Below, piece after piece: positions 6,892-64,000 of a DNA stretch of 64,000 bases. Below the pieces are notes generated by a model, which saw only the letters and a list, made by a program, of their open reading frames with translations, was not told where the DNA came from and searched no databases. Source of the stretch: Ensifer sp. IC4062 (GTDB lineage: Bacteria > Pseudomonadota > Alphaproteobacteria > Rhizobiales > Rhizobiaceae); contig NZ_JADYVD010000044.1 in NCBI RefSeq assembly GCF_020193575.1, forward strand, positions 1 to 64,000, in the 5' to 3' direction. Position 1 is the stretch's first letter, and each line of letters starts with the position of its first letter. Both the position numbers and the translations under genes were made by a program.

Positions 6892-8079
6892 TCAGTTCTG
6901 CAGATTGTCCAGGTTGTCCGCGATGTTGACGCCCGTATTCGCGATGCCGATCGGCCGCGCCACGAAGTCGAGGAATTTCGCAATATCGACGGAGGGATGA
7001 CGCGATGCATAGATCACGTCGCGGTTCTTGATCGGGAAGGTCTGGCCGACGATCAGGCTATCCGGATTGGTCATGTTGAAACGGTAGACGATCGGATAGC
7101 GCCCGACGCTGTCGGGCTTCATGCCCTTGCTCAGCATCGTGTTGAACCGCTCTCGTCCAAGCAGACTCATGACGATATCGGGTTCTTCGTAGCGGAAGAC
7201 GAAGTAGCCCTTTGCATCAACGGTTCGGTCGGCGCCGCCACCCGCAAGTGCCACGGCTTCGAGCAGGTTCAGGTCATTGGCGCCGAACTCGACGCGTTGG
7301 TTTGCCCTGACCTGACCGAGGATCGTGAACGTGCGCGGATCGCGGGTCACGAACACCTGGTCGCCCGGCTTGACGTGAATATTTTCCGACGGGTTTTCGA
7401 TGATGGATTTCAGCAGGACCGTTCCGGTTTTCTTGCCGCGCACGAGCGTGACGTAGGTCTCGTAAGGCTGCGCCGACGGACCGCCGGCCTTGGCGATGAC
7501 TTCGTTGATCGACTCGCTGACGAGGTTCAACGGCACGACCGACGGACGGCCGACTGCGCCGGAAACCGTGACGATGCGCGATGCCGTGGACGTGCTCGTC
7601 ACGATGACATCGGGCTCCACGGCTTTCTGCTTCAGGGCTTCGAGAATTGCCTGGCGCGCCTGTTCCAGCGTCAAGCCGGCAAAGCGGACCGGACCGACAT
7701 AGGGAATGGCCGCCTTACCGTCTGGCTGGACGACCAGATCGATGTTGGTCTGCTTTGATTCTGTTGTGGAAAACAGGCCGTCGCTGCCCGCCTCGAAGAT
7801 CGATATTTTCAACTGATCGCCGACACCGATGACGACCTGGCCGACGCCGCCGCCAATGCCGAAGCGTCGGCTGAGCGTCGTGGAAACATAGTCCGAGACC
7901 AACCGTGCCGATTGACCGTCGACGTCGACGATATCGAAGACGGTCGCATTCTTTCTGCCGATCTGCGCACCGGACTGGCCGGCATCCGCAACGATGTCGG
8001 TGGTCAGAGGGCCTTCTCCCGGCACGGCCTGACATCCCGCAAGCGCGGTGCAAAGCAGAAGGGCAGTCACTCGTCTCAC
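6892..8079 (-). CDS. rkpU: K-antigen outer-membrane export lipoprotein (Wza/KpsD-type)
   Basis: A 395-residue polysaccharide export protein. The N-terminus is a lipoprotein signal with lipobox LAGC, lipid-modified Cys16. The poly_export domain follows, with VGVGDQLKISIFEAG, and then SLBB-like segments (VVQPDGKAAIPYVGPVRFAGLTLEQARQAI, ending the part that matters here, plus VTVSGAVGRPSVVPL and FTILGQVRANQRVEF). It likely forms the outer-membrane pore for capsular K-antigen. The start is GTG at 8079 with GGAG about 10 bases upstream. It is divergent from rkpA across 414 bases, the position reported for rkpU in Sinorhizobium fredii. The symbol rests on this position and on fold; a generic export protein is the alternative. 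Confidence 0.85.
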   Translation of the reverse strand: MRRVTALLLCTALAGCQAVPGEGPLTTDIVADAGQSGAQIGRKNATVFDIVDVDGQSARLVSDYVSTTLSRRFGIGGGVGQVVIGVGDQLKISIFEAGSDGLFSTTESKQTNIDLVVQPDGKAAIPYVGPVRFAGLTLEQARQAILEALKQKAVEPDVIVTSTSTASRIVTVSGAVGRPSVVPLNLVSESINEVIAKAGGPSAQPYETYVTLVRGKKTGTVLLKSIIENPSENIHVKPGDQVFVTRDPRTFTILGQVRANQRVEFGANDLNLLEAVALAGGGADRTVDAKGYFVFRYEEPDIVMSLLGRERFNTMLSKGMKPDSVGRYPIVYRFNMTNPDSLIVGQTFPIKNRDVIYASRHPSVDIAKFLDFVARPIGIANTGVNIADNLDNLQN

Positions 8080-8493: not shown

Positions 8494-11400
8494 ATGACTG
8501 TTGAAATCATAGGGCGTGCATGCCTCGCCCCCGGAGCAAAATCGCCTGAGGCGCTGTTCAAGATTCTTCGCCAGGGCAAATGCACCGTGTCCAGCGTTCC
8601 CTCGGACCGTTGGGATTTGGCGCGTTTTTGGCATCCCGTCATGGGCGTGCAAGGCAAGACCTATTCTTTTGCAGCCGGCGTGCTCGATCAGATCTATGAT
8701 TTCGATCCCGCTGTCTTCGGCATGTCTCAGCGGGAAGCCATGTATATGGATCCGCAACAGCGTGTGCTGCTGCAGCTCGCCTGGCGCGCGCTCGAGGATG
8801 CCAATATTTCCATTGCATCCCTCCATGGCGAGAACGTCGGCGTTTATGTCGGCGCGTCGAGCCTCGACCACGCCAACCTGACGGTCGAAGATCCGGCCGC
8901 CGCCGGACCCTATTTCATGACCGGCAATACGCTGTCGATCGTCTCCAACCGCATTTCCCATATCTTCGGGTTGAGCGGACCGAGCATGACGGTGGATACC
9001 GCCTGTTCCTCTTCGCTCGTGGCGCTCGATCAGGCGATGCGGGCGCTCAACGCCGGCGACATCGACACCGCGATCGTTGGCGGCGTCAACATTCTTGCCC
9101 ATCCCCTTCCCTTCGTCGGCTTCGCCCAGGCACGGATGCTGTCGCCGGAAGGCCTCTGCCGCGCCTATGACAATGACGGCGCCGGCTATGTCCGCGCCGA
9201 AGGCGGCGTTGTTTTCATCCTGCGCCGCTCGGATCGGGCGCGCCGCGAACGCGACCGCAGCTACGCCAGGATCGTGGCGACCGGGGTCAACTCGGCCGGC
9301 CGGACAAACGGCATTTCGCTTCCCTCGCGCGAGGCGCAGGCCAACTTGCTCAGGGCCATCTACGAAGGCAACGGCATCGATGCCAACCAAGTCGCCTTCG
9401 TCGAGGGTCACGGCACTGGCACGAAGGTAGGTGACCCGGCGGAAGTATGGTCCATCGGCACCGTCATTGGCGCAAAGCGCAGGGCGCCGGTCCCGATCGG
9501 CTCCATCAAGTCCAATATCGGCCACACCGAACCGGCGTCCGGACTGTTCGGCATGATGAAGGCCGTTCTGGCGCTCGAACACAACTACCTGCCAGCGTCG
9601 CTGCATTTCGATACGCCGAACGAACACATCGATTTCGACGGACTGAACGTTCGCGTCACCGCCAATCCGATCGAACTGCTGAAAGGCAAGCGTGCGCGCC
9701 TTGCCGGCATCAACTCCTTCGGCTTCGGCGGCGCCAACGCGCATGTGGTCATCAGCGACCCGGAAACTGTACAGGAAGAGAAAGCCGCGCCTTCATCGGC
9801 CGGCCATGTATTCATGGCAAGCGCCCACACGGCATCGAGCCTTGATAACCTGTTGAAGGAGTACAAGGCGAGGTTCGCAGGTGCGTCCAAGGAAGAAACG
9901 CGTGCGATGATCGCCGCCTCCGGCGCCAATCGCACCCATATGCGCCATCGCTTCGCCGCGCGCAGCGACCACCCCGAAGATATCGTGCGGGCGATCGCCA
10001 GCCATCTGGACAAGCCCGGCTCCGACATCGGCGAAGTGGGCGAGGCCCCGGTGAAGGATGCAAAAGTCGCGTTCGTCTTCTCGGGCAACGGCTCCCAATG
10101 GGCCGGCATGGGCGTCGAAGCCTTCCGTGAGAACCTGCACTTCCGCCAGTCCTTCACGTCCGTAAGCGCGCTCTTCAAGTTTCATTCCGACATCGTCCTG
10201 ACCGATCTTCTGACGGATCCGGAACTCGACAAGAAGCTCTCGGACACGAAGATCGCGCAGCCGCTACTTTTCGCCGTCCAGGCTGCGCTCTCCGATTCGC
10301 TGGTCGCGATGGGCATCAAGCCGGCAGCCGTCTTCGGCCACTCGGTCGGCGAGATCGCCGCCGCCTATGCGGCCGGCGCCCTGTCGCTCGTCGATGCCGT
10401 GTCGATCGTGGCCAAGCGCTCGCTGCATCAGGATCTCCTGGCCGGCCAGGGAACGATGGCCGCCGTGATGCTCGGCGAGGAAGCCGCACAGGCATTCGCG
10501 CAGGGGCGCGGTCTCAACGAGCTCTGCGTCGCAGCCATGAATGCGCATAATTCGGTCACTATGTCCGGTCCGGCGCATGAAATTTCCGCCTTCCGCGACG
10601 CCGCACGCAAGGCCAAGATCCCGGTCCAGATCCTCGACATCAACTATCCGTTCCACCATCCGGTCATCGACCAGGCAAAGCAGTCCTTCCTTTCCGACAT
10701 TCCGGATATTGCCCCGCGGCGGACAGAGCTGACGTTTCTCTCGACCGTAACCGGCGCCGCACTCGAGGGAACGCAGCTCGACCCGGACTATTGGTGGAAG
10801 AACGTCCGCGAACCGGTCCGCTTCCAAGCCGCCGCCGAGGCGGCACTCGAACTCGGCTGCCAGCTTTTCATCGAAATTTCCCCGCGTCCGATCCTGGCGT
10901 CCTATGTCAAGGAAACGATCAAGCACGCGGCCTTCCCGGCGGCGGTCGTCCCGACATTGCTTCGCGACGTCGGCCAGAGCGGTCACGATCCGATTTCGGC
11001 GTCGATGGCGCGCGCCGTCGCGCACGGTGCGGCTGTCGACCGGCCCCGCGTCTATGGCAAGCGCAACGCTTTCGTCGAATTGCCGGCATTGCCCTTCGAA
11101 CCGGTCGAACTGCGACCTGCGGTCACGACCGATTCTACGGACCTCTTCGGCCGTTCCGGCCGGCCTTATCGCCTGACGGGCTGGCGCGGCGATCCGAACA
11201 GCGGCAGTTGGAAGAACCATGTCGATGCGCATCTCTTCCCGGACCTTGCAGAGCATGTCGTCGACGGCAAGCCGATTCTGCCGGGCAGCGGCTTCATTGA
11301 GGTGGCGGTTTCCGCCGCGCAGCAATATTACGGCAGCGACGAGGTAGAGATCACCAATCTTGAGATCGTTCGCCCGCTGGAGCTCAGCGACAGTCGCCTG

Positions 11401-14400
11401 ATGGAACTCTCGACCATCCTCTCACCCGAGACGGGCGACATCGAGATCCGTTCGCGCGAGCGCCTCTCGGAGGACGACTGGACGGTGCATGCCGTCGCGA
11501 GAAGCCGCAAGCCAGTGCCCGGAAAAACCAACGCCCCTACGTCCTTCGCCGGTTTGGCGAAAACGGCAAGTGTCGATCCTTCGAAAGCCTACGAGACGGC
11601 GAAACAATTCGGGCTCGACTATGGTCCGAGCTTCCAGTTGCTTTCAAAGGCTGTCGCATACGCCGACCGGATCATTGACGTCGAACTGAAGACACCGAAG
11701 GGGGCGGGACACCCGCTCGTCACCTACTCTCTTCATCCGATCTCCGTCGACGCAACGTTCCATGGACTCGTTGCACTCTTCGGCCGCTTTACGGGTGACA
11801 AAGGCGGAGCACCGTATATTCCAGTACGCTTCGGTTCCGTGCGTGTCGTCAACCCCGGACGGCCAATCGCCCGCGCCACGATCGAGATCGAGCGCGTCAG
11901 CGCCAATTCGATCAAGGCGAGGTTTCATTTCTTCGACAAATCGGGCGAAGCGATTGCGCATTTCGACGATTGTCGTTTCCGCCGCACCTATTTGCGCAAA
12001 CACAAGACGCTGGACGGGCTTTCCTTCCACTACGAGGCCGTGCTCTCCGACACGACGCTGCCCGGCGCCAAGCCGGCTGCACCGATGCCGCACTTGCTGA
12101 CGGCGCCCGCCGGTGGCGATGGCAGCGTCGACAATGCGACGTTGCTGTTCAACGCTGCGATCTACCGCGCTTGCCAGGAAATAGCGCTGAAGCTTGCCAA
12201 GGGAAACGCCACGATCAACAGCGACGCCCTGCCCGGCGACTTCGCCTTCCAGTGTTTCCTGACAAGCTGCCTCTACGTATTGGAGGACGCCGGACTCAGC
12301 GAACATCAAAATGGCGTCTGGACTGTCGCGCGGGAGTTCAGTCTTCCGACCGTGGCTGAAATCCTCGGAGAGCTCTATGGCGAGCGTCCCGATCGCGCGG
12401 TCGAAGCCGTGCTCATCAACAATGCCTACGCCGAGGCCTTAAGCCGCCTCGATGCGCTTTTCGCTGCGGGGCCAGATGACGACCGGGCGCAGTCCTTCAG
12501 CGCGGGCTTCATCAGCGACGCGACGCTCGACCACCAGGCCGTGCATTCCGTTGCGAGCCGGCAGCGCATGGAGCGGGTACTCGCCGCGGCGGAACGGGCG
12601 ATGACCGCGCAAACCGCTGCGGCCCCCTTGCGCATTGTCGAATTCGGAAGCGTTTCGACAGGTTTCACGCGCCGGCTCGCTGACCTGGCGGCGCGTCATG
12701 GCGCAAGCCTGGTCGTGGCCGAACCGCGCGACAACGCGCAGCGCAACCTTGAGATCGCATTCGAGAACGACGCGCATGTGCGTATTCTCAAGAAAAGCGA
12801 ATTCGCGGCGATCGCATCCTTCGACCTCGCCGTCAGCGCCTCGGACAACCTTTACCATCTGATCGAGGACGAGACCGCGCTGCGCACCGCATTGCGCTCG
12901 ATGCTGCGCGAAGGCGGCGCGCTGGCTGCAGCCGTCAGTGCGCCCTCGATCTTCGGCGACTTCGCTCTCGGCCTTTCCGAAGGTTGGTTTGCCCGCAGCC
13001 AGACGGCCGAATTCCCGATCGGCAATCTTGCCGCCGTGCCGCATTGGCAGAAATGCCTAACAGATCTCGGGCTGCGCGACGTCAACGTCGCGGACCATGA
13101 GTGCGCACACGGCAATATCATACTGCTCGAAGCCCGCGGCGCGGCTGCTACGACAACATCCGGCGAACCGGTGCAGGCGATCCAGACGGTTACCGGCCCC
13201 TATCTGGTCATCCAGGTCGAAGGTGCGCCCCACGATGCGGCGCCGATGCCCGCACATGCGGTCCCGGTACTGCTGTCAGGCGATATTGCGGCCGACGTTG
13301 CAAGGCTGCAGGCCGCACTCGGCAGCTTGGGCCAGAATCCCGTTCAAGCGGTGCTTGTTTCGCCGGCGACCGGTCATGCAAGCGACACCGATTCCGTCTC
13401 GCTGCAGGTTCATGTGCTTGCGTTGAGCGCCTTCGCCGAAGCGCTGAGACAGCATGTCGGAGATGCCGGACCGTCCGACGACGACCGCCCCCGGTTGGTG
13501 ATCGTCGCGCCGGGCGGCGCGCCGATCGCTTCGCGGGCAGATGGCGTCGCGATCAGCTCCGGCGTGAATTCCGGCCTCTGGGCGTTCGCTCGCGTTCTGC
13601 AGAACGAATACGAATTCCTCGACGTCCATTCGCTCGACCTTGACGGTTGGAACAAAGCAGGCCTGGAGGATGGCATCGCGTCGGCGTTGCCTCTATTGAC
13701 CGTATCCGGGTCGAATCGCGAATGGTTGCTCGACAAGGCCACTGGATTGCTCTCTGAAATTCGGGCCGTTCCCGGCCCCGCCGTCAAAACCGAAGGCAAG
13801 ACAAGCGCCTTTGCGGCGGCGACAATCCACCAGCGCGTCAGCTCGCAGGTTGCGAGCATTGCTTGGGAGCAAGCTGATGTGCCGCAGGCCGGCCAGGGCG
13901 AGATCGTCGTCACCGTAGCGGCAACGGGCCTGAATTTCCGTGACGTGATGTGGGCGATGGGCCTTCTTCCCGAAGAAGCGCTCGAGGACGGCTTTGCCGG
14001 CGCAACGATCGGCATGGAGCTTTCCGGCCATGTGGTCGCGATCGGCGAAGGGGTAGACGACCTTGCCGTCGGCGACGCGGTTATGGCGATCGCGCCTTCG
14101 GCATTCTCCACGCACGTGGTCGTTTCCCGCGCCGGCGTGGCAAAACTGCCGCGGACCATCAGCCCCGTGGCCGCTGCCACGGTGCCCGTCGCTTTCCTCA
14201 CGGCATACTACGCGATGGTCGAGCTCGGCCGCATCCAGGCTGGAGAGACGATCCTCATCCATGGCGCTGCCGGCGGCGTCGGGCTCGCCGCGCTTCAGGT
14301 CGCCAAGCTCAAGGGCGCAAGGGTCATAGCGACGGCTGGAACGCGCGAAAAAAGGCGCTTCCTGGCAATGCTCGGTGCCGATCATGTCTTCGATTCGCGC

Positions 14401-16038
14401 TCGCTCGGCTTCGCCAATGACGTGCGCGCCGTCACCGGTGGAGATGGCGTCGATCTGGTACTGAACTCGCTGTTTGCCGAGGCGATGGAACAAAGCCTCG
14501 CGCTGGTGAAGCCTTTCGGCCGGTTCCTGGAACTCGGCAAGCGCGATTATTACGCGGACAGCAAGATCGGATTGCGGCCATTCCGGCGCAATGTCAGCTA
14601 TTTCGGCATCGATGCGGACCAGCTTCTGGTCAATGCGCCTGCGCTTACCAAACGCATCTTCATGGAAATCGGGGCGCTCTTCGAGGAAGGCAAGCTGACG
14701 CCGCTGCCCTACCGCGCCTTCGATTTCGATGAAATCGGCAACGCCTTCCGCTTGATGCAGAATGCCGGGCACATCGGCAAGATCGTCGTCCTGCCGCCAG
14801 TCGCCGGCAAGCACGAGATCGCCGTGAAGCCGCGCAAGGGCGTCAAAGTGGATCCGGACGGCGTGCATCTCGTCGTCGGCGGCATTGGCGGTTTCGGTCT
14901 CGCGGCCGCCAACTGGCTGGTCGAAAAGGGTGCGCGCAGGATCGCACTGTGCTCTCGCCGCGGTCAGGCGGACGCCGAAACGAGCGCGATGCTCGCACGC
15001 TGGAACAAGATGGGCGTCTCTGCCTCGCTCCATGCCTGCGACATCACCGATACGGCCGCGGTCGACGGACTTCTCGCGACGCTTCGTGCCGAGGCGCCGC
15101 TGCGTTCCGTCGTCCATGCGGCGATGGTGCTGGACGACGCCTTGATCAGCAATCTCAACCGCGAGCGCAATCGACCGGTGATCGACACGAAGGCCAAGGG
15201 CGCAGCGATCCTCGACCGGCAGACGCGTGGCGATGAGCTCGACAATTTCATCCTGTTTTCGTCGGCAACGACGCTTGTCGGCAATCCCGGACAGGCCAAC
15301 TATGTCGCGGCCAACGGCTATCTCGAAGGCCTTGCCCGCGCCCGACGCGCGGAGGGTCTCGCCGGTCTCGCCGTCGGCTTCGGCGCGATCGCCGACGCCG
15401 GATATCTCGTGCAGAACACCGATGTAAACGATCTTCTGGCCAAGCGCATCGGCAAGACCGCCTTGAAGGCCCAGGTGGCGCTCGACATGGTCGAAAGCCA
15501 CATCGCATCGGATCCGGGCACCGTCGACGCGGCGGTCGTGATGATTTCGGAGATCGACTGGTCGGCCGCGCGCAACCTGCCGGTTGCCCGCAACGCACTC
15601 TTCGAGGTGATCCAGCGCAGCGCCGATCAGCATTCGTCCGGTGCCGAGGGAACGCAGATGGACCTCGTGGCGATGATCGAGGGGAAGTCGCCGCAGGAAG
15701 CGGAAGACATCCTGTTCGATCTGGTGGCAGGCGAGATCGCCGCGATCCTTCGCGTGTCGAAAGATACGGTGACCCGCGGCAAGATCCTGAAGGAAATCGG
15801 CCTGGACAGCCTGATGGCGGTCGAACTCGGCATGAGCTTCCAGCAGAACACCGGCTTCGACATGCCCTTGAGCGGCGTCGCCGACAATACGACGGTGGGC
15901 GACGTTGCGCGCAAACTTTATGAAAAGGTAAGCAAGCGGGATCAGGGCGAAGATGGCGAGGCAGTTGATGATCGGCTTGTGACCGAACTTGCACAGCGCC
16001 ACGCCGGGGCGGACAGGGAAAAAGCACTGAGCCAATGA
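8494..16038 (+). CDS. rkpA: Multidomain fatty-acid/polyketide synthase for K-antigen lipid
   Basis: A 2514-residue type I synthase. Ketosynthase: VDTACSSSL with active Cys171, EGHGTGT and SNIGHTEPASG. Acyltransferase: GHSVGEIAA with Ser617. Dehydratase: HVVDGKPILPG with His921 and a second-site Asp1086 (HPISVDATFHG). A methyltransferase-like region at about 1370-1530 has a degenerate SAM motif (VEFGSVSTGFT). Enoyl reductase: IHGAAGGVGLAAL at about 1923-1935. Ketoreductase: VVGGIGGFGL at about 2127-2136 with Tyr2270. Acyl carrier: GLDSLMAVEL with Ser2439 for phosphopantetheine. There is no thioesterase. This order matches iterative highly reducing synthases and predicts a fully reduced chain held on the carrier domain until another enzyme removes it. 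It overlaps rkpG by four bases (ATGA). Known in S. meliloti as the first gene of the rkp-1 K-antigen region. Confidence 0.93.
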   Translation: MTVEIIGRACLAPGAKSPEALFKILRQGKCTVSSVPSDRWDLARFWHPVMGVQGKTYSFAAGVLDQIYDFDPAVFGMSQREAMYMDPQQRVLLQLAWRALEDANISIASLHGENVGVYVGASSLDHANLTVEDPAAAGPYFMTGNTLSIVSNRISHIFGLSGPSMTVDTACSSSLVALDQAMRALNAGDIDTAIVGGVNILAHPLPFVGFAQARMLSPEGLCRAYDNDGAGYVRAEGGVVFILRRSDRARRERDRSYARIVATGVNSAGRTNGISLPSREAQANLLRAIYEGNGIDANQVAFVEGHGTGTKVGDPAEVWSIGTVIGAKRRAPVPIGSIKSNIGHTEPASGLFGMMKAVLALEHNYLPASLHFDTPNEHIDFDGLNVRVTANPIELLKGKRARLAGINSFGFGGANAHVVISDPETVQEEKAAPSSAGHVFMASAHTASSLDNLLKEYKARFAGASKEETRAMIAASGANRTHMRHRFAARSDHPEDIVRAIASHLDKPGSDIGEVGEAPVKDAKVAFVFSGNGSQWAGMGVEAFRENLHFRQSFTSVSALFKFHSDIVLTDLLTDPELDKKLSDTKIAQPLLFAVQAALSDSLVAMGIKPAAVFGHSVGEIAAAYAAGALSLVDAVSIVAKRSLHQDLLAGQGTMAAVMLGEEAAQAFAQGRGLNELCVAAMNAHNSVTMSGPAHEISAFRDAARKAKIPVQILDINYPFHHPVIDQAKQSFLSDIPDIAPRRTELTFLSTVTGAALEGTQLDPDYWWKNVREPVRFQAAAEAALELGCQLFIEISPRPILASYVKETIKHAAFPAAVVPTLLRDVGQSGHDPISASMARAVAHGAAVDRPRVYGKRNAFVELPALPFEPVELRPAVTTDSTDLFGRSGRPYRLTGWRGDPNSGSWKNHVDAHLFPDLAEHVVDGKPILPGSGFIEVAVSAAQQYYGSDEVEITNLEIVRPLELSDSRLMELSTILSPETGDIEIRSRERLSEDDWTVHAVARSRKPVPGKTNAPTSFAGLAKTASVDPSKAYETAKQFGLDYGPSFQLLSKAVAYADRIIDVELKTPKGAGHPLVTYSLHPISVDATFHGLVALFGRFTGDKGGAPYIPVRFGSVRVVNPGRPIARATIEIERVSANSIKARFHFFDKSGEAIAHFDDCRFRRTYLRKHKTLDGLSFHYEAVLSDTTLPGAKPAAPMPHLLTAPAGGDGSVDNATLLFNAAIYRACQEIALKLAKGNATINSDALPGDFAFQCFLTSCLYVLEDAGLSEHQNGVWTVAREFSLPTVAEILGELYGERPDRAVEAVLINNAYAEALSRLDALFAAGPDDDRAQSFSAGFISDATLDHQAVHSVASRQRMERVLAAAERAMTAQTAAAPLRIVEFGSVSTGFTRRLADLAARHGASLVVAEPRDNAQRNLEIAFENDAHVRILKKSEFAAIASFDLAVSASDNLYHLIEDETALRTALRSMLREGGALAAAVSAPSIFGDFALGLSEGWFARSQTAEFPIGNLAAVPHWQKCLTDLGLRDVNVADHECAHGNIILLEARGAAATTTSGEPVQAIQTVTGPYLVIQVEGAPHDAAPMPAHAVPVLLSGDIAADVARLQAALGSLGQNPVQAVLVSPATGHASDTDSVSLQVHVLALSAFAEALRQHVGDAGPSDDDRPRLVIVAPGGAPIASRADGVAISSGVNSGLWAFARVLQNEYEFLDVHSLDLDGWNKAGLEDGIASALPLLTVSGSNREWLLDKATGLLSEIRAVPGPAVKTEGKTSAFAAATIHQRVSSQVASIAWEQADVPQAGQGEIVVTVAATGLNFRDVMWAMGLLPEEALEDGFAGATIGMELSGHVVAIGEGVDDLAVGDAVMAIAPSAFSTHVVVSRAGVAKLPRTISPVAAATVPVAFLTAYYAMVELGRIQAGETILIHGAAGGVGLAALQVAKLKGARVIATAGTREKRRFLAMLGADHVFDSRSLGFANDVRAVTGGDGVDLVLNSLFAEAMEQSLALVKPFGRFLELGKRDYYADSKIGLRPFRRNVSYFGIDADQLLVNAPALTKRIFMEIGALFEEGKLTPLPYRAFDFDEIGNAFRLMQNAGHIGKIVVLPPVAGKHEIAVKPRKGVKVDPDGVHLVVGGIGGFGLAAANWLVEKGARRIALCSRRGQADAETSAMLARWNKMGVSASLHACDITDTAAVDGLLATLRAEAPLRSVVHAAMVLDDALISNLNRERNRPVIDTKAKGAAILDRQTRGDELDNFILFSSATTLVGNPGQANYVAANGYLEGLARARRAEGLAGLAVGFGAIADAGYLVQNTDVNDLLAKRIGKTALKAQVALDMVESHIASDPGTVDAAVVMISEIDWSAARNLPVARNALFEVIQRSADQHSSGAEGTQMDLVAMIEGKSPQEAEDILFDLVAGEIAAILRVSKDTVTRGKILKEIGLDSLMAVELGMSFQQNTGFDMPLSGVADNTTVGDVARKLYEKVSKRDQGEDGEAVDDRLVTELAQRHAGADREKALSQ

Positions 16039-17450
16039 ACAACGACGGAAACGGCCAGACCTTCTCCAAGATGAGCAGCAGCCTCAAGGAGAACCTGCTG
16101 GACAGGATGAGGAACACGCACCAATCGTCCGAGCGCAACCGGATGGCGCGCTCGGAACGGGAGTTGCCGGCGCCGCCGCGTCGCCGCCAGGCGCGTTTCG
16201 AGGACCTTCCAGAATATAAGCAGGTTCTTACGCAAAAATTTGCGAGCGAGCAGTTGGGTATCGCCAACCCTTTCTATCGGGCACACCAGACGGCAGCCGG
16301 CGCGACGACCGTGATCGACGGCCGTACGATGATAAATTTCGCCTCCTATGATTACCTCGGGCTGAACCGCCACGCCCATGTACTCGACAGGGCGCGCGAC
16401 ACAATCGGGAACTTTGGCATTTCCGCCTCCGCGAGCAGGCTCGTTGCCGGCGAGCGGCCCGTGCATGTCGAGCTCGAGGAAAAGATCGCGCGCTTCTACG
16501 GCGTCGAAGCGGCGGTTTGTTTCGTCAGCGGCTATCTCACCAACGTTACCGCCATCAGCTGCCTGATGGGTCCCAAGGATCTCGTCATCCATGACGAGTT
16601 CATCCACAACAGCGCGCTCGCCGGCATCAAGCTTTCCGGCGCCACGCGCCGCCTCTTTAAGCACAACGACACGGCCGACTTAGAGCATGTGCTGCGCACG
16701 GTCGCCGGAGAATACCGTCACATCATGGTCATCGTCGAAGGCATCTATTCGATGGACGGCGATGTCGCGAACCTCCCAGCACTGCTGAAGCTCAAGGCCG
16801 AATATGGCTTCTGGCTAATGGTCGACGAGGCCCATTCACTCGGCGTTCTCGGGTCGCGTGGCAAGGGTCTCGCCGAGCACTTTGGCGTTGATCCGGAAGA
16901 GGTCGACATCTGGATGGGAACGCTGTCGAAAACGACGTCGAGCTGCGGCGGCTATATTGCCGGCAACGAGGCGTTGGCGGCGGTGCTCAAGGCATCGGCC
17001 GGTGGATTCGTCTACAGCGTCGGCCTGGCACCCGTGCTCGGCGCATCCGCCGTCGCCAGCCTCGATATCCTCGAACGCGAACCCGAACGCACCGCGGCGC
17101 TCAGGCGCAATGGCGGCTTGTTCCTCAAGCTTGCTAAGGAAGCTGGACTCGATACGGGCTTGAGCGGCGGCTTCTCGGTTGTTCCCGTCATCGTCGGCGA
17201 TTCGTTGCGCGCCGTGCAGCTTTCCAACGATCTGCTCACGGCGGGAGTGAATGTGCTGCCGATCATCCATCCTGCCGTACCGGAAGGATTGGCCCGTCTG
17301 CGCTTCTTCATTACCAGCGATCACACCGAGGAGCAGATCCGCCGTACCGTCGCACTGACCGCTGAACGCCTCAAGGATTTGACCGAACGGAATTTCGGGC
17401 TTGGCGGCGTCGATATCGAACAAATGTTGAAGGCGCTGTCGGCGCGCTAG
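16035..17450 (+). CDS. rkpG: Alpha-oxoamine synthase (KBL/SPT-like) of K-antigen locus
   Basis: A 471-residue PLP enzyme of the alpha-oxoamine synthase family (KBL, AONS, ALAS, serine palmitoyltransferase), which condenses an acyl thioester with an amino acid and releases CO2. Visible are YLGLNRHAHV, ASASRLVAG, HDEFIHNSALAG, VDEAHSLGVLGSRG and the PLP lysine Lys299 in GTLSKTTSSCGG. There is an N-terminal extension of about 60 polar, basic residues before the catalytic core. Its ATG is within the rkpA stop (ATGA), so translation is coupled to the synthase. As RkpA lacks a thioesterase, RkpG is the obvious candidate to unload its acyl chain as an aminoketone. The amino acid used cannot be read from sequence. 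Confidence 0.9.
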   Translation: MNNDGNGQTFSKMSSSLKENLLDRMRNTHQSSERNRMARSERELPAPPRRRQARFEDLPEYKQVLTQKFASEQLGIANPFYRAHQTAAGATTVIDGRTMINFASYDYLGLNRHAHVLDRARDTIGNFGISASASRLVAGERPVHVELEEKIARFYGVEAAVCFVSGYLTNVTAISCLMGPKDLVIHDEFIHNSALAGIKLSGATRRLFKHNDTADLEHVLRTVAGEYRHIMVIVEGIYSMDGDVANLPALLKLKAEYGFWLMVDEAHSLGVLGSRGKGLAEHFGVDPEEVDIWMGTLSKTTSSCGGYIAGNEALAAVLKASAGGFVYSVGLAPVLGASAVASLDILEREPERTAALRRNGGLFLKLAKEAGLDTGLSGGFSVVPVIVGDSLRAVQLSNDLLTAGVNVLPIIHPAVPEGLARLRFFITSDHTEEQIRRTVALTAERLKDLTERNFGLGGVDIEQMLKALSAR

Positions 17451-17525
17451 ATCATTTCTTACGCAATTCCAGAGTGAATCGTAGTTGAAACCACTGCCCC
17501 ATTGAGCCGCAGGCGGAACCTTAGC

Positions 17526-18329
17526 ATGACCCATGTGATCATCACCGGTGGCTCGAGCGGCATAGGCCTGGCATTAGCATCCATCTACGCGAGCCGCGGC
17601 GCACGGCTCTCTCTCATCGCACGTTCCCGCGATCTTCTGGAGCAGGCCCAAGAAATGCTCGTCTCAGAGCATGGTGCAGCGGCCGGAGATATCCACGTGG
17701 AGGCAGCCGACGTTGCCCGCGAGGAAGAAATCGAAACGGCCATTCGTCGCTGTATCGAAACATTCGGTCCCTGCGACATTCTCGTGACCTCGGCCGGCGT
17801 CGTCGAACCGGCACCTTTCGAGGAGCAGCAAAGCACGACCTTTCGTCGACAGATCGAAACGAACCTCTCCGGCACGGTGCATGCCGTGCGCGCCGTCTAT
17901 CCGGAAATGAAGCGGCGGCGCAACGGCCACATCATGATGATCTCGTCGGGCGCCGGCTTGATCGGCATTTACGGCTATACGGCCTATTGCGCGTCGAAAT
18001 TCGCATTGCACGGCTTTGCCCAGGCGCTCAGAAGCGAGGCGCGACGCCACAATGTCGGAGTGTCGGTCAGCTTTCCGCCCGATACCAAGACGCCGCAGTT
18101 CGCGCGCGAACTTGGCCTGCGGCCACCCGAAGCACGCGTGGTGATGGGGGCGGTGCGGCCCTGGACCGCCGAGGCGGTAGCAAGGAGGATCGCGAAGGGC
18201 ATCGACCGACGGCGGTCCGAAGTCTATTTCGGCCTCGCGCTTTTCTTGCTCGGCCGCTTCGGCCCGGCAGTGAGACCACTCCTTGACCGGTGGTTCGACA
18301 GGGCAATCGCCCGTGACAGTGGACGGTGA
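17526..18329 (+). CDS. rkpH: Short-chain dehydrogenase/reductase of K-antigen locus
   Basis: A 267-residue classical SDR. The NAD(P) motif TGGSSGIG is at residues 7-14, with VTSAGVVEP as the central motif and catalytic Tyr154/Lys158 in YTAYCASKFAL. The segment SVSFPPDTKTPQF and the overall layout resemble 3-ketodihydrosphingosine reductase, which reduces the product of serine palmitoyltransferase. That fits its place after the oxoamine synthase rkpG. I chose ATG 17526 because AGGCGGA lies about 8 bases upstream and the Rossmann motif then sits at the usual distance; an in-frame TTG at 17502 gives an extra MSRRRNLS. A hydrophobic C-terminal stretch (LALFLLGRFG) may associate with membrane. Confidence 0.88.
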   Translation: MTHVIITGGSSGIGLALASIYASRGARLSLIARSRDLLEQAQEMLVSEHGAAAGDIHVEAADVAREEEIETAIRRCIETFGPCDILVTSAGVVEPAPFEEQQSTTFRRQIETNLSGTVHAVRAVYPEMKRRRNGHIMMISSGAGLIGIYGYTAYCASKFALHGFAQALRSEARRHNVGVSVSFPPDTKTPQFARELGLRPPEARVVMGAVRPWTAEAVARRIAKGIDRRRSEVYFGLALFLLGRFGPAVRPLLDRWFDRAIARDSGR

Positions 18330-18415: not shown

Positions 18416-20032
18416 GTGAAATGGCTCAAAGGTATCGGCTTGGCGCTTCTTCCCTTCCAGTTGCATGACTACCCGGCGGCGCTGACTCTCTTTTGCTATC
18501 TCCTGTCCTGTGCCGCGATTTTCTTCACGGATCGCTTCGCACTGCCGGCGCGCGAGCGCAGGAGGAACAGACCTCCCTACGGACGCGATCAGGACATCAT
18601 CGATGCGATCGCGCGCCTGCCGATCATAGCGCTCGTCTTTGCCGGTTTCTTCGCGATTTCCTGGCGGCCCCTCTATGCCGCGGCCGGCGCGATGAGCTTC
18701 TTTATCATCTTCACCGGCATTTCCCGCGCGAAGTTCAAGTTCATCCGCGAGCCGCTGGTATTCTCGGATATCGCCCTTGTTGCGGACGTCCTCAAATACA
18801 AGACGATCTTCTACGCGACGTCGCTGAACATCCTGTTCTGGATCGTCGCTTTCCTTTATGTGTTCGGCGTCTCCGCTCTCTACATGTATTTCGAGCCGAG
18901 CATCTTGCCGGCGCGAGGCAAGTTGTTCTGGGTTCTGGTGATGATCCTCGCCGCGAGCGCACCTTGGGCTCTTTTGTTCTACGGCCCGGTGAATCGGCCG
19001 ACGGCGGCCCTCGTGCAAAAGCTCGTAAGGGCGGTCAACGTCAAGATGAATACGGTGCGCTTCGGGACGTTTGCCTCCGTCGTCTTCCATTTCATCATAT
19101 GGCTGGGCGTGAAACGCGAAAAAATCGTCGCCGAACTCTCTGAAAGGCTTCGCGCCGTGGTGCTCGATCTCATCGGGCACGAGGAAGCCCCGCTGATCGT
19201 CGTCTGGCAGTCGGAATCCTTCATCGACATGCGCCATTTCGGCGTCAAGACGATCAAGCTGCCGACAATCGACCGACTGCGGAAGCAAGCGATACAGTGG
19301 GGCCGCCTCAGCAACGTGTTCGAGGGCGGCTATACCTTGCGGACCGAGTTCGCCGTGCTGAGCGGGCTTGTGCCGGACGACCTCCATGTCGATGCGAGCT
19401 ATCCCTATCTGCGCGCCGCCCATTATGCCGACGTCGTCTGGCCGGGAAAGTTGAAGCGCGCCGGCTGGCATACACACTTCATTCATCCCTATGACCGCAC
19501 GTTCTTTCTCCGGCACAAGGCAATGCCACAGCTTGGCTTCGACAAGCTCACTATGCTGGACGCCTTCGACCACAGGCCCGAGCGCGACGGGCTCTATGTC
19601 TCCGACGCGACGCTGACAGAAAGAGTGATCGCGGAAGTCGAAAAGCTGCCGGAAGACGAAAGCGGCTTCTTCTTCGTCGCCTCCATGGCCAATCACGGCC
19701 CGTGGGAGGCCGGCCGCGTGGGCACGCTCACGAATCCGGTCGATATCTACATGGCAATCCTGCAGCAGTCGGATGCTGCACTCAAACAGTTGGTCAACAG
19801 TCTCAACAAGCTTGAGCGTCCCGTCTGGCTCGTCTTCTACGGCGACCATGCGCCTCTTCTGAAATCCTTCGCGGATCCGTTCCCGGATCCCCGCACGGAC
19901 TATTTCATCGTGCCGCTCGCCAAGGCACGCCCCGCCCAATCCGGTGCGAAAGCACCCAAGGACGAGGACCCGTGGAACCTGATACGGTCATTGCTCAGAC
20001 ATGCGAACCTGCAAAAGGATGCGCTGCAATAG
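18416..20032 (+). CDS. rkpI: LTA-synthase-like membrane enzyme of K-antigen locus
   Basis: A 538-residue protein with about five N-terminal membrane helices (for example LPIIALVFAGFFAISW and ILFWIVAFLYVFGV) and a C-terminal alkaline-phosphatase-superfamily domain of the LtaS/sulfatase type. The metal/nucleophile signature is YTLRTEFAVLSGL, where Thr307 aligns with the LtaS catalytic threonine. FVASMANHGPW and FYGDHAPLLKS supply the metal-binding residues, and WQSESFIDMRHF the first one. Such enzymes transfer phospho-groups from lipids to glycans, or hydrolyse esters, on the outer face of the inner membrane. The start is GTG 18416, preceded by GAGGCGGCG. It follows rkpH by 86 bases. The reaction in K-antigen synthesis is not established. 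Confidence 0.87.
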   Translation: MKWLKGIGLALLPFQLHDYPAALTLFCYLLSCAAIFFTDRFALPARERRRNRPPYGRDQDIIDAIARLPIIALVFAGFFAISWRPLYAAAGAMSFFIIFTGISRAKFKFIREPLVFSDIALVADVLKYKTIFYATSLNILFWIVAFLYVFGVSALYMYFEPSILPARGKLFWVLVMILAASAPWALLFYGPVNRPTAALVQKLVRAVNVKMNTVRFGTFASVVFHFIIWLGVKREKIVAELSERLRAVVLDLIGHEEAPLIVVWQSESFIDMRHFGVKTIKLPTIDRLRKQAIQWGRLSNVFEGGYTLRTEFAVLSGLVPDDLHVDASYPYLRAAHYADVVWPGKLKRAGWHTHFIHPYDRTFFLRHKAMPQLGFDKLTMLDAFDHRPERDGLYVSDATLTERVIAEVEKLPEDESGFFFVASMANHGPWEAGRVGTLTNPVDIYMAILQQSDAALKQLVNSLNKLERPVWLVFYGDHAPLLKSFADPFPDPRTDYFIVPLAKARPAQSGAKAPKDEDPWNLIRSLLRHANLQKDALQ

Positions 20033-20047
20033 CGGCGGCGACTGGTA

Positions 20048-21364
20048 ATGACAGCGGACATGACGATCAATCGCTCGGCACCACGGACATTCCTGTTTCT
20101 GCAGGGCCCCTCGTCGCCGATCTTTGCCAAGATCGCCACTCGGCTCGAGGCATTCGGCCACACCTGTCTTCGCATCAACCTCAACGTCGGCGACCAGATC
20201 TTCTGGCGACGCGGGGGCGCGTTCAATTATCGCGGTTCCATGTCCGCGTGGCCGGCCTTTGTCGAGGCCTTCATCCGTCGCCATGCTGTCAGCGACCTTG
20301 TGCTGCTTGGCGAAGAGCGCCCCTACCACCAAGTCGCGACCGCCGCTGCCCGCAAGGCAGGCGTTGCCGTCTTCGTCGTGGAAATGGGCTATCTGCGCCC
20401 GGACTGGCTGACGCTGGAGCGTGGCGGCATGTCGTCCAACTCGCATTTTCCAGCCGAACCAGACCAGATCCTCAACGCAGCAGCAGGCCTGCCGGAACCG
20501 GACTGGCGGCGGCGTTACGAACAGTCCTTCCTCGCCGAGGCAACCTGCGATCTGCTCTACAATCTTCCGAACGTCTTTCTTTGGTTTCTTTTTCCGGGCT
20601 ATCGCCGGCACGGGATCTTTCATCCCCTGGCGGAATATGCGGGGTGGGTCCTGCGTCTTGCCACGCGGGGCCGGCAACAACGCGCGGCCGATGCCCTTAT
20701 CCGCTCGCTAGCGTCGGATGGGCGCGATTATTTCGTCTACCCTTTGCAGTTGGAGACCGACTATCAACTGCGTGCGCACTCGCCGTTCAACAGCCAGAAG
20801 GAAGCGATCCGCGCGATCCTCGCCTCCTTCGCACGCCACGCCCCCGCAGGCAGCAAACTTGCGATCAAGAGCCACCCCCTCGACAATGGCCTCATCCGCT
20901 GGCGCGAGGTCGTCGCTGAAGCAGCAGCCAAGATCGGAATCGCAGACCGCGTCGCTTATCTCGACGGCGGCAATCTGGACGCTTTGGTGCAGGGAAGCGC
21001 GGGCGTCGTGACGGTCAACTCGACCGCCGGCCTGCATGCATTGAAACAGGGCAAGGCCGTAAAAGTGCTCGGCAGTGCCGTATTCGACATTGCGGGGCTC
21101 ACCGATCAGCAGCCGTTGGATATCTTCTGGCAAAGGCCTCGAGGGCCGGATGCCGCCCTGAGCGCGGCCCTGTTCAGATTGATGGCCGCGGCCATCCAGG
21201 TGCGTGGCAATTTCTATTCAAGCGCAGGCACCAACGCCGGCGCAAACGCGATCGCCGAGCGTTTGCATCGGGGCGTCGTCAACGAGCCTGGTGCGTTCAT
21301 CGACCCTCCGCCCAGGCGAAAACCGGCGAAAGGCACATTGTCCACCGCCTTCGGCAGTCGCTAG
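20048..21364 (+). CDS. rkpJ: Capsule polysaccharide lipid-linker protein, KpsS-like
   Basis: A 438-residue soluble protein of the Capsule_synth family (KpsS/LipB-like). The N-terminus FLFLQGPSSPIFAKIATRL, then INLNVGDQIFW, VLLGEERPYH and VFVVEMGYLRPDWLTLE, match KpsS. The second half has YFVYPLQLETDYQLRAHS, KSHPLDNGL and VTVNSTAGLHAL, the HP and ST motifs typical of this family. In E. coli, KpsS and KpsC build the beta-Kdo linker joining capsule to its lipid. ATG 20048 is used; ATG 20060 is an alternative. It is 15 bases after rkpI, last gene of the rkpAGHIJ run, and convergent with kpsF. Confidence 0.88.
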   Translation: MTADMTINRSAPRTFLFLQGPSSPIFAKIATRLEAFGHTCLRINLNVGDQIFWRRGGAFNYRGSMSAWPAFVEAFIRRHAVSDLVLLGEERPYHQVATAAARKAGVAVFVVEMGYLRPDWLTLERGGMSSNSHFPAEPDQILNAAAGLPEPDWRRRYEQSFLAEATCDLLYNLPNVFLWFLFPGYRRHGIFHPLAEYAGWVLRLATRGRQQRAADALIRSLASDGRDYFVYPLQLETDYQLRAHSPFNSQKEAIRAILASFARHAPAGSKLAIKSHPLDNGLIRWREVVAEAAAKIGIADRVAYLDGGNLDALVQGSAGVVTVNSTAGLHALKQGKAVKVLGSAVFDIAGLTDQQPLDIFWQRPRGPDAALSAALFRLMAAAIQVRGNFYSSAGTNAGANAIAERLHRGVVNEPGAFIDPPPRRKPAKGTLSTAFGSR

Positions 21365-21381: not shown

Positions 21382-22392
21382 TCACGCCACGCCAGCGCGC
21401 AAGAGATCGTGGATGTGGAGAATGCCGACCGGGTGTCCGGCGTCGTCGACCAGGAAAAGGACGGTCACCTTGTGCTCCTGCATGAACTCCATGGCGGCGC
21501 TCGCAAGCACGTCGCCTTTGATGACCCTCGGATTGCGCGACATCACGTCCTCGACCCGCTGAAGCAGCAGATCGCCCGCCATGTGGCGGCGCAGGTCGCC
21601 GTCGGTGATCACGCCGATCAGCGTGCCGCCTTCTTCGACAATTCCGACAACACCGAATCCCTTCGACGACATCTCGATGACCGCTTCGCTCATCGGACGG
21701 CCGACGACGAGCAGCGGCACCTGTTCCGCCACATGCGCCAGTTCATGCACCAGGCGCAGCTGCGCGCCGAGCTTGCCGCCGGGGTGGAATGTCTTGAAAT
21801 CTTCAGCCGAGAAACCGCGGCGCTCAAGGAGCGCGATCGCCAAGGCATCTCCGACGGCGAGTTGCAGCATGGCAGACGTCGTAGGAGCGAGTCCGTGCGG
21901 ACAGGCCTCCGGTACCTTCGGCAGCACCAGGGCGACGTCGGAGTTGCGGGCAAGGATGCTGTCGCGATTGGCGCAGATCGAAACGACCGGCACCTTGAAG
22001 CGCTTTGCATAGGTGAGCATGTTGCCAAGCTCGGCCGTCTCCCCCGACCAGGAAAGCAGGATCAGAACATCCTGCGACGTGACCATACCGAGATCGCCAT
22101 GGCTCGCCTCGGTCGGATGGACGAAATAGGCGGACGTGCCAGTGGACGCCATGGTCGCGGCGATCTTGCGGCCGATATGCCCGCTCTTGCCGACGCCCGA
22201 GACGACGACCCGGCCCTCGCTGTCGCCGATCAATTCGACCGCGTCCACAAGGCTGCGCGCAAAGGCTTCATCTATCGTCAGGTGGTTGGCGAGAGCCTTG
22301 ATCCCATTGGTTGCGGTTGTCAGCGTCCTGCCGATCGAATCCAGCATGGCGGAGCGGGATTGCCCATCCGCCTTCACTTGTCTCAAGCCCAT
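21382..22392 (-). CDS. kpsF: Arabinose-5-phosphate isomerase (KpsF/KdsD family)
   Basis: A 336-residue enzyme that interconverts ribulose-5-phosphate and arabinose-5-phosphate, the first step toward Kdo. An N-terminal SIS sugar-isomerase domain contains SGVGKSGHIGRKIAATMASTG, HPTEASHGDLGM and LSWSGET. Two CBS domains follow (about 215-335) with VGIVEEGGTLIGVITDGDLRR and FLVDDAGHPVGILHIHDLL. All family landmarks are present. It converges on rkpJ with 17 bases between stops. The neighbouring capsule genes suggest it serves K-antigen or its Kdo linker, although the enzyme would also feed LPS Kdo. Rhizobia often have several kpsF copies, so the exact number symbol is not assigned. Confidence 0.92.
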   Translation of the reverse strand: MGLRQVKADGQSRSAMLDSIGRTLTTATNGIKALANHLTIDEAFARSLVDAVELIGDSEGRVVVSGVGKSGHIGRKIAATMASTGTSAYFVHPTEASHGDLGMVTSQDVLILLSWSGETAELGNMLTYAKRFKVPVVSICANRDSILARNSDVALVLPKVPEACPHGLAPTTSAMLQLAVGDALAIALLERRGFSAEDFKTFHPGGKLGAQLRLVHELAHVAEQVPLLVVGRPMSEAVIEMSSKGFGVVGIVEEGGTLIGVITDGDLRRHMAGDLLLQRVEDVMSRNPRVIKGDVLASAAMEFMQEHKVTVLFLVDDAGHPVGILHIHDLLRAGVA

Positions 22393-60079: not shown

Positions 60080-60235
60080 ATCATTACGTTGTTTTATTGA
60101 AACAGTGAGATGATCGAGTTCTTTGAGGCGACGCAATTCCGACGGAAAACCGCTGCGCACTTTGCCTGGAATAGCTTTTAGAACAACGCAATTCCGGACG
60201 GAAAACCGCTGCGCACTTTGCCTGGAATAGCTTTA
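60080..60235. repeat. Family 2 element with a tandem 50-bp duplication at the podJ stop
   Basis: A first module around TGTTTTATTGAAACA (60089-60105) is followed by two tandem copies of a 50-bp unit, 60131-60180 and 60186-60235 (period 55). Each reads ACGCAATTCC(G)GACGG.. to ..CCTGGAATAGCTTT. They differ mainly by one G. The second copy ends in the bases TTA that are the podJ stop codon on the minus strand. Confidence 0.85.
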
Positions 60236-63200: not shown

Positions 63201-63919
63201 TAGGCGAGGGCCACGAGTTCGTCGTCGCGGTTCCGGTCGAAGGCGTCCAGGCGCTCCTCGACACCGTTCCAGCGGTTTTCCAGGCGACGGATGCCGTCTT
63301 CGCGCGCCAGGCCGTCTATCAGGGCCCTGAGGGCATCGAATTCGACGCGCAGCGCGTCCGCCTGAGCGGGCGAAGTCTGGCGGTCGAGCTGATGAATGCT
63401 GTCCGCCAGCCGCTGCATATCTGCCCGAATGTCCTCGGCGAAACGATGATCCTGAGCCTCGGCCTTGATGCCGCGGATTTCCGATCTGAGAGCACTCAGT
63501 TCGCGAACGAGCCCGTCGCTTATATCGCGCTTCAGTTCCTGTCTCAGGCCGACCAGCGCTTCGGCTATGTCGGCCGCAGCCGATGCGGATCGAGCCGGTT
63601 CGGCTGGCGTTCGCGGTGCCTCCTGGACGCGACCGGACGCAAAACGATCGACCTCTCGCGCGGCGATACGTTCGCGCAGCGACGTCCGCTCGCGGCTTGC
63701 GTTCAAGGCGCGCTGGCGCTGCAGAATTTCGGAGACAGCGTCGCTGGTCGTGGTCGAGCGCTCGGTCTGGCGGAGCTGAGCCTCGCGCGCCGCTCCGCTC
63801 ATCAAGCCTTCGATCCGCGCCTCCAGGCCCTCTATCGTGCGGTTCAGGGCATCAAGCGAGGGCCTGTCGCTGTAGGACGGGATACTTGCGCGCTGAGGAT
63901 TGGATCGCGATCCGTTCAT
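60233..63919 (-). CDS. podJ: PodJ-like cell-polarity protein
   Basis: About 1228 residues. The first 640 or so are acidic coiled coil (LNRTIEGLEARIEGLM, IRRLENRWNGVEERLDAFDR, LEERLDELSMLLESNQ). A proline/acid-rich stretch leads to one membrane helix near residue 815 (PILMAVGAVLLAIMSYPLV). The periplasmic part has Sel1-like repeats (YEIGTRFTEGRGVKIDPAEA, YRLANLYEKGAGVARDPVKA, FNLAVLYARGNGVKQDLEES) and a C-terminal peptidoglycan-binding domain (LNNNGFDAGAPDGHMGKKTI). This is the architecture of PodJ, which organises the new pole in alphaproteobacteria; S. meliloti podJ1 mutants have envelope defects. ATG 63919 is preferred to 63949. Its stop codon lies in a repeat. Confidence 0.88.
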   Translation of the reverse strand: MNGSRSNPQRASIPSYSDRPSLDALNRTIEGLEARIEGLMSGAAREAQLRQTERSTTTSDAVSEILQRQRALNASRERTSLRERIAAREVDRFASGRVQEAPRTPAEPARSASAAADIAEALVGLRQELKRDISDGLVRELSALRSEIRGIKAEAQDHRFAEDIRADMQRLADSIHQLDRQTSPAQADALRVEFDALRALIDGLAREDGIRRLENRWNGVEERLDAFDRNRDDELVALAYRLDDIKSQIGSLDNGAAFDGLQEKLLAIADAIELLGRQIQPDDGRVVSQLADFDARFDEISRAIAVSSRSAADFDNAFVSRLESRLGDLSRQIDEARPVETGLGARIEALTARIEELSSEKAATRLEERLDELSMLLESNQKNAQAELADYLADISQRIESLDRGSVNSALAERLDYLARRIDDLNMHAAPPVADQRFERLEDRLADIAQRLEETHAAPFDDREALRNLEAQIANLSTLIGQPRVEAGAAPVDFESRMSALEDYLATSDEYIIEAARQAAEAVMEAFAKKGPMHASGDMAAISALAEDLRTLEDLSRSSNERTARTFEALHETLVQIAEKLELLEGREPVAAAVRSEATITRDMPAMPKAAQPEFGNPFGSARLDDRDDDRGRNVRVLQAEDEVSAAAPVSATADDLVIAEAVSTVEKGEVREPAPPAKAGLLAGLTRRFSGKRTATLPERVRQVVEPAPSIDPSEMLAPEDANQLLEPGSGAPDVKKILERVRAGQISRGGQPAVEGDKADFIAAARRAAQLAVEEADTLNAVKDGSGSSGIGAFARHRRPILMAVGAVLLAIMSYPLVSTVLKGRDMPEVQPVAAIEQKAVPQVAEAKALDDRLTETASAPAAKIPADALETNAAPTALAAGAANTTPAVTASAETATAGSSHAPLLHPASEPARASTATFQAAPAVTAKAGTFEPIDKAGDIVLPEGFGPPALVTAAKGGDPLAFYEIGTRFTEGRGVKIDPAEAARWYQRAADAGVIPAEYRLANLYEKGAGVARDPVKAKTLYLKAAAAGNASAIHNLAVMLASGRDGAPDFAEAAKWFEKAASLGVRDSQFNLAVLYARGNGVKQDLEESYKWFSIAARDGDKDAGEKRDEIAKAMKPEQLASAMAKADSWKLQPVDAKANTVDIPDAWVGPPTKTATVDMTKAVRNIQAILNNNGFDAGAPDGHMGKKTITAIKAFQKSIGQEPTGEITDALVKELLKRNS

Positions 63920-64000
63920 TGTCTCTTCGCCCCTGTCGTTGACTACCATCGAAAGCCGCGACGAGAAGAGTCAGGCTCCGAGCCCGCTGTGCGATCGATG

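Follow-up and report, generated by a model that had tools for sequence, protein, structure and literature searches.

Bacteria can make sphinganines with an iterative polyketide synthase (PKS) paired with an alpha-oxoamine synthase (AOS) (PMC12134224). In Pseudomonas fluorescens MYb115, the iterative PKS SgaA works with the adjacent AOS SgaB, a serine palmitoyltransferase (SPT) that takes almost only L-serine, and SgaC, a short-chain dehydrogenase/reductase (SDR), is proposed to reduce the 3-keto group as KDSR does (PMC12134224). This system yields sphinganines of C24-28 and most likely phosphoglycerol-sphinganines, the latter judged by best fit to the masses, and the authors treat the genes as a secondary-metabolite cluster (PMC12134224). 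Here, we describe the same three kinds of gene in the capsule locus rkpA-rkpG-rkpH-rkpI-rkpJ of Ensifer sp. IC4062 (7.12-Mb genome), within positions 1 to 64,000 of contig NZ_JADYVD010000044.1 (C114), a stretch of 64,000 nucleotides that was analyzed whole and is called the window. The five genes probably build and prime a sphingolipid carrier for the capsule.

The fungal toxin fumonisin is assembled by comparable steps, with the PKS Fum1, chain release by the AOS Fum8, and keto reduction by Fum13. FUM13 has been named a KDSR homologue (PMC12134224). An initial annotation of this DNA drew the parallel between rkpA-rkpG-rkpH and fumonisin, and it stands as an analogy; however, fumonisin is a secreted product of fungi, made without capsule genes, and the bacterial Sga system is the nearer precedent.

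The locus in the window is that called rkp-1 in Sinorhizobium and wcbPQRT in Burkholderia and Cobetia, with rkpA, rkpG, rkpH, and rkpI as the putative counterparts of wcbR, wcbT, wcbP, and wcbQ. Published accounts already present these genes as makers of a lipid carrier or anchor (PMC4881576, PMC3557214, PMC11766843), with the lipid either unnamed or “probably fatty acids” (PMC3557214, PMC11766843), and describe wcbPQRT as a capsule lipid operon in which WcbQ is a lipoteichoic acid (LTA) synthase (PMC11766843). Escherichia coli group 2 capsules are started by KpsS, which places 3-deoxy-D-manno-oct-2-ulosonic acid (Kdo) on (lyso)phosphatidylglycerol (PMC10148158, PMC13171606). The rkp locus shares with them a KpsS-type enzyme (RkpJ) and would, as they do (PMC10148158), prime a phosphoglycerol lipid with Kdo, but has a dedicated lipid pathway beside the Kdo transferase; the lipid at the capsule terminus is where we predict a difference. 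A rhodobacterial SPT works preferentially with an acyl chain carried by its own acyl carrier protein (ACP) and condenses it with serine (PMC9386255); it differs in having a separate ACP and an acyl-ACP synthetase and no PKS, and RkpG scores below the cut-offs of the SPT models.

Sphinganine synthesis by a bacterial PKS-AOS pair is already known (PMC12134224); what is plausibly new is a capsule system with a sphingoid instead of a glycerolipid carrier. By title and opening lines, in a search that left most subscription literature outside, we found no publication joining the rkp/wcb lipid with a sphingoid. The strings “capsul” and “rhizob” do not occur in the main text of PMC12134224, nor does “sphing” in a 2025 capsule review (PMC12220298).

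RkpA, RkpG, and RkpH

rkpA (8494..16038, + strand) encodes an iterative reducing type I PKS of 2514 aa, with ketosynthase (KS; 8500..9951, aa 3-486; PF00109, PF02801, PF16197), acyltransferase (AT; 10072..10977, aa 527-828; PF00698), dehydratase (DH; 11203..11985, aa 904-1164; PF21089, PF14765), enoylreductase (ER; 13825..14790, aa 1778-2099, a TIGR02824 stretch; PF08240, PF00107, and PF13602, the Pfam matches from ~1800), ketoreductase (KR; 14860..15393, aa 2123-2300; PF08659), and ACP (15724..15912, aa 2411-2473; PF00550) domains, all on the + strand. Catalytic motifs are intact in the KS (DTACSSSL at 168-175, HGTGT, NIGH), AT (GHSVGE), DH (HVVDGKPILP), ER (GGVG), KR (YVAANG), and ACP (GLDSL at 2436-2440). 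Among 100 PKSs, the DH pattern HxxxGxxxxP was found in 61, the KS second-histidine pattern in 89, and the KR tyrosine pattern in 96. The gap between DH and ER, initially labeled MT-like, carries VEFGSVSTG at ~1380, which we take to be a degenerate S-adenosylmethionine motif, and the Pfam scan returned no methyltransferase domain in RkpA, so that the label is a fair one. The 75 residues beyond the ACP motif hold no GxSxG, and all 100 unfused PKS homologues have ≤107 aa after the last ACP-type motif. RkpA is therefore, as first proposed, iterative, reducing, and without a thioesterase, and in this it is of the Sga type. Because it lacks a thioesterase, it would retain on its own ACP the saturated long acyl chain that repeated extension is predicted to give.

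rkpG (16035..17450, + strand) encodes a pyridoxal phosphate (PLP)-dependent AOS of 471 aa, proposed to condense serine and release the chain. Two further claims of the initial annotation were confirmed, namely coupling to rkpA (the rkpG ATG overlaps the rkpA stop codon as ATGA at 16035-16038) and an AOS with its PLP lysine intact (K299 in GTLSK; also H191, D264, H267, and R423). In a tree from a short search, with reference rows on long branches and with Pseudomonas relatives representing SgaB (itself absent from the tree), RkpG grouped with PKS-linked AOS in a clade separate from KBL, BioF, 5-aminolevulinate synthase (ALAS), and the bacterial SPT included. RkpG is in this respect also of the Sga type, an adjacent AOS of the PKS-linked clade with an intact PLP site.

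No NCBIfam name was accepted for RkpG, as every model scored below its own cut-off, whether for SPT (bits/cut-off, NF047599 276/500, NF047600 301/640, NF047603 207/670) or for KBL, BioF, and ALAS (bioF 360/426, PRK06939 298/460, TIGR01822 245/493, ALAS 239/339); NF047603 at E ≤ 1e-150 gave no match in the genome. Such a cut-off can miss true members, since the BioF-like protein of the same genome is likewise under that of bioF (332/426).

By analogy with SgaB, the amino acid used by RkpG is most likely serine, and condensation of the acyl thioester with L-serine, with loss of CO2, would release 3-keto-sphinganine. It is very unlikely that RkpG instead resembles KBL or BioF in using glycine, alanine, or a short acyl-CoA, with a product lacking the sphingoid 1-hydroxyl. 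The top NCBIfam score is that to bioF and the fold is common to KBL, and the structural comparison proposed at the outset did not help to decide the KBL question; against this, the RkpG clade is separate from KBL, BioF-like proteins, and ALAS, all of which the genome already has, the tested relative SgaB uses almost exclusively L-serine (PMC12134224), and PKS fusions and adjacency (below) indicate a long ACP-bound chain. KBL activity was rejected on clade placement in this short-search tree with its long reference branches and on the separate KBL of this genome, which scores over its cut-off.

rkpH (+ strand) is listed as an open reading frame from TTG 17502, but its start is likely ATG 17526 (17526..18329). 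RkpH is an SDR by Pfam, with GGSSGIG, an S-Y-K triad, and a PPDTKTP stretch that we take to be a mark of KDSR. The SDR part of the first assignment stands, and the likeness to KDSR comes from the SDR match together with that motif; no chain named KDSR was among the best 60 of 154 PDB matches, and the PPDTxT stretch is missing from 41 of 58 SDRs, including the Pseudomonas ones. RkpH would reduce 3-keto-sphinganine to sphinganine.

Of the 11 closest relatives with short flanks, 10 (L006-L015) have matches to rkpA, rkpG, and rkpH next to one another in this order, so the arrangement is not due to chance; in the eleventh (L016), matches to rkpA and rkpG adjoin one to rkpJ. RkpG relatives (E ≤ 1e-90) were found in 21 of 151 genomes of the family and 23 of 398 of the phylum, own genome counted. 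Of these 23 genomes, 19 have a PKS adjoining the AOS. A PKS is present in 90 of 97 loci of at least 19 kb (distant and on the opposite strand in L057), a set containing near-duplicates (e.g., L045 and L085), and PKS and AOS overlap or lie ≤60 bp apart on one strand in 81 of the 90. Sampling was not random for the 80 named loci, the best 80 of 591 confirmed stretches. In members of three phyla (Planktothrix agardhii, Streptomyces anthocyanicus, and a proteobacterium), PKS and AOS are fused into a single protein. Adjacency and natural fusions together are strong evidence that the AOS works on a PKS-held chain.

We consider it highly improbable that the RkpA product is a special fatty acid which RkpG and RkpH only modify as an acyl carrier, the older reading of rkp-1 and wcb, and we know of no AOS chemistry that merely modifies a fatty acid. 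The RkpG PLP site is intact and bacterial SPT offers a precedent (PMC12134224), whereas a 2025 paper takes the wcb operon to make a lipid carrier, “probably fatty acids” (PMC11766843), and a 2012 paper has rkpA synthesizing a lipophilic molecule that rkpGHIJ modify and transport (PMC3557214). RkpA, RkpG, and RkpH very probably make a sphingoid; the long-chain 2-amino-3-hydroxy lipid released by decarboxylative condensation that was proposed initially is supported by the serine chemistry of SgaA and SgaB and by the clade placement of RkpG.

Six loci (L057, L058, L059, L068, L073, and L074) have an AOS without an adjoining PKS and branch off to one side within the RkpG clade. In the two of these whose neighbors were scanned (L059:8797-15797 and L068:8879-12778), a myo-inositol-1-phosphate synthase and an SDR are nearby, so the branch seems to represent another lipid pathway; L059 additionally has a CTP transferase and LptF/G-like permeases. 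These two look like inositol lipid clusters, perhaps sphingoid based, with their own export. Separately, an LpxC-like deacetylase lies between PKS and AOS in loci of Burkholderiaceae type (L082:10907-11833, L083:10887-11801, L149, L163, and L050).

RkpI, RkpJ, and the proposed carrier

rkpI (18416..20032, + strand) and rkpJ (20048..21364, + strand) follow directly downstream on the same strand; the stretch first annotated ended one gene early, and the functional unit extends beyond rkpA-rkpG-rkpH into both. RkpI is a membrane protein whose catalytic domain (PF00884) has GacH as its best match by sequence and by fold. E267, T307, D477, and H478 are invariant in 20 of 20 alignment rows and are presumably the nucleophile and metal ligands. 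By this fold and these residues, RkpI is a predicted phosphoglycerol transferase of the LtaS/GacH type, although GacH and LtaS are known to act on glycans or teichoic acid and not on a sphingoid. RkpJ (PF05159, 369 bits; NCBIfam KpsS model, 210 bits, under the cut-off of 600) is a KpsS-like Kdo transferase, and we propose that it lays down the beginning of the Kdo chain on this lipid.

RkpI would transfer phosphoglycerol, presumably from phosphatidylglycerol, to the C1 hydroxyl of sphinganine, a step that we rate as rather likely, giving a one-chain phosphoglycerol lipid that resembles the lyso-phosphatidylglycerol base of E. coli group 2 capsules. RkpJ would attach the first Kdo, and the polymer would be exported together with the lipid. 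We infer this product for Ensifer sp. IC4062, as we do the RkpI substrate and the order of the RkpI and RkpJ steps.

The same 398 genomes were searched for RkpI relatives, KpsS, and canonical SPT (NF047603), using profiles built from PKS-linked loci (RkpI rows from the own genome and G537; KpsS rows from the own genome and G459) and scoring three candidates per genome for RkpI and four for KpsS. NF047603 SPT was found in 22 genomes at E ≤ 1e-150, and in 17 over the cut-off. Strong RkpI relatives (E ≤ 1e-90) occur in 14 of the 398 genomes, 12 of which have PKS-AOS (Fisher p 1.6e-16); by genus, PKS-AOS is present in 8 of 10 with strong RkpI versus 14 of 213 (p 1.4e-9). The remaining two, G448 and G471, have an SPT over the NF047599 cut-off, not over that of NF047603, and a sphingoid route (PKS-AOS or SPT) is present in 14 of 14 strong-RkpI genomes versus 41 of 398 overall. 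At a looser 1e-50, 15 of 22 RkpI genomes lie inside the union of PKS-AOS and SPT; of the seven outside, G461 has an NF047599 SPT and six score 218-259 bits. Among 58 KpsS genomes, which are not independent by kinship (26 belong to f17), an RkpI relative is present in 13 of the 16 with a sphingoid route and in 1 of the 42 without (G461). RkpI relative and AOS are on different contigs in five genomes (G331, G459, G242, G416, and G297), so the co-occurrence is not explained by close linkage alone. G182 has a KpsS of 452 bits, with no RkpI relative or SPT at the limits used and no PKS-AOS.

These counts bear on two other explanations. In one, RkpI decorates the sugar chain with glycerol phosphate, leaving bare sphinganine or another derivative as the carrier. 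GacH, the best fold match, decorates a polysaccharide, but the association of RkpI relatives with sphingoid capacity among KpsS genomes would be unexpected for sugar decoration, and masses fitting phosphoglycerol-sphinganines are on record for the Sga system (PMC12134224); we regard this explanation as unlikely. In the other, which we hold to be distinctly unlikely, the sphingoid is made as a membrane lipid or secreted metabolite merely co-located with capsule genes. The Pseudomonas Sga lipids are indeed found free and acting on a host, and the SgaAB authors read their cluster in that way (PMC12134224); moreover, of 19 PKS-AOS genomes, 5 lack KpsS and 7 lack a strong RkpI relative. However, genes belonging to four capsule families are found on the flanks (~9-12 kb) in 62 of 90 PKS-AOS loci, RkpI, KpsS, and sphingoid routes track together across genomes, and published summaries connect rkp-1 with export of the capsule and with a lipid carrier.

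The sphingoid would more probably be the capsule carrier or anchor. The role of K-antigen anchor assigned at first has gene context and the published lipid-carrier proposal for rkp-1 in its favor, and is plausible rather than proved. The proposed assembly is weakest in its topology: the charge pattern of RkpI suggests that the catalytic domain is periplasmic, but Kdo priming takes place at the inner leaflet. This would call for flipping of the lipid or for RkpI activity on chains already exported, for example by swapping their lipid; we favor a lipid needed before export because published summaries describe rkp-1 as required for secretion.

In G448 and G471, KpsS adjoins an RkpI relative (L198:9506-12342 and L199:8299-11288) with no PKS-AOS and with canonical SPT in the genome; it is possible that these capsules use SPT-made sphingoids.

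Capsule export and anchor classes

Two KpsM-like permeases (26% identity; E 8.5e-28 and 3.2e-20) are encoded on a contig different from that of the window, and PF05159, the KpsS/KpsC family, matches at three further places in the genome besides RkpJ. The genome therefore has both the ABC exporter and the KpsS/KpsC-family proteins of a group 2-like ABC capsule system. The permeases are ~14 kb apart, each adjoining a PF05159 protein (G000:C109:163428-179758), in what are likely two capsule export modules.

In a KpsS tree, sphingoid-route and other genomes separate with 3 changes versus 13.9 when shuffled, which is only suggestive because branches are weak (36-42) and rows were chosen by score. 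We tentatively propose, at somewhat less than even confidence, two anchor classes for ABC capsules in Proteobacteria, lyso-phosphatidylglycerol versus a phosphoglycerol sphingoid made on site by PKS, AOS, SDR, and an LTA-type enzyme (or fed by canonical SPT where present), the latter class with a KpsS lineage to match. The host-protective MYb115 sphingolipids would be anchor precursors, not independent secondary metabolites, and phosphoglycerol or head-group exchange by RkpI would be a new assembly step. That exchange could include the whole capsule head group, moved from diacylglycerol to the sphingoid.

The locus of Pseudomonas sp. TMW 2.1634 (L081) has four genes between AOS and SDR, encoding a PhyH-type dioxygenase, a capsular polysaccharide biosynthesis protein, a GNAT protein, and an LTA synthase. 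The MYb115 locus tags (sgaA RS19805, sgaB RS19800, sgaC RS19775; PMC12134224) leave room for four between sgaB and sgaC, as in L081, and on these tags the MYb115 sga cluster is probably a capsule locus. The PhyH-type dioxygenase and GNAT protein, which lie between AOS and SDR in L081 (13243-17004), L089, and L092, may hydroxylate and N-acylate the base.

If the proposal is true, it answers a decades-old product question, as summaries citing the 1997 rkp work leave the rkp-1/wcb lipid unnamed, and gives the loosely defined “lipid carrier” a molecular identity that a single lipidomics run can detect or rule out. Capsules anchored by a sphingolipid would add a new class to the surface polymers, and K-antigen, a symbiosis factor, would sit on a lipid class also made by plants and animals. 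Sphingolipid synthesis would also be suggested in the rhizobia, burkholderias, bordetellas, and methanotrophs found with this gene kit among the best 80 of 591 confirmed stretches, a non-random set ranked by likeness to a Pseudomonas query.

Neighboring genes and gene names

The rkp genes are preceded by an rkpU-like polysaccharide export protein gene (Poly_export, SLBB; 6892..8079, − strand; PF02563, PF22461) and followed by a kpsF-like sugar-phosphate isomerase gene (SIS and CBS by Pfam; 21382..22392, − strand), whose Sinorhizobium meliloti counterpart is annotated KpsF/GutQ and which probably supplies Kdo precursor. An S. meliloti record has the window order, with the export protein, rkpA, rkpG, rkpH, and rkpJ annotated and then kpsF, and its RkpG copy is 91% identical; given this identity and order, the rkp names are sound. 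In the S. meliloti Ak57 record (CP090106; L086:14341-15953), the RkpI match runs over two reading frames with no annotated gene, and rkpI looks interrupted, unless there is a sequence fault.

Toward the far end of the window (60233-63949, − strand), a 1238-aa protein combines Sel1 repeats with a peptidoglycan-binding domain, an architecture that we take to be like that of polar organizers such as PodJ.

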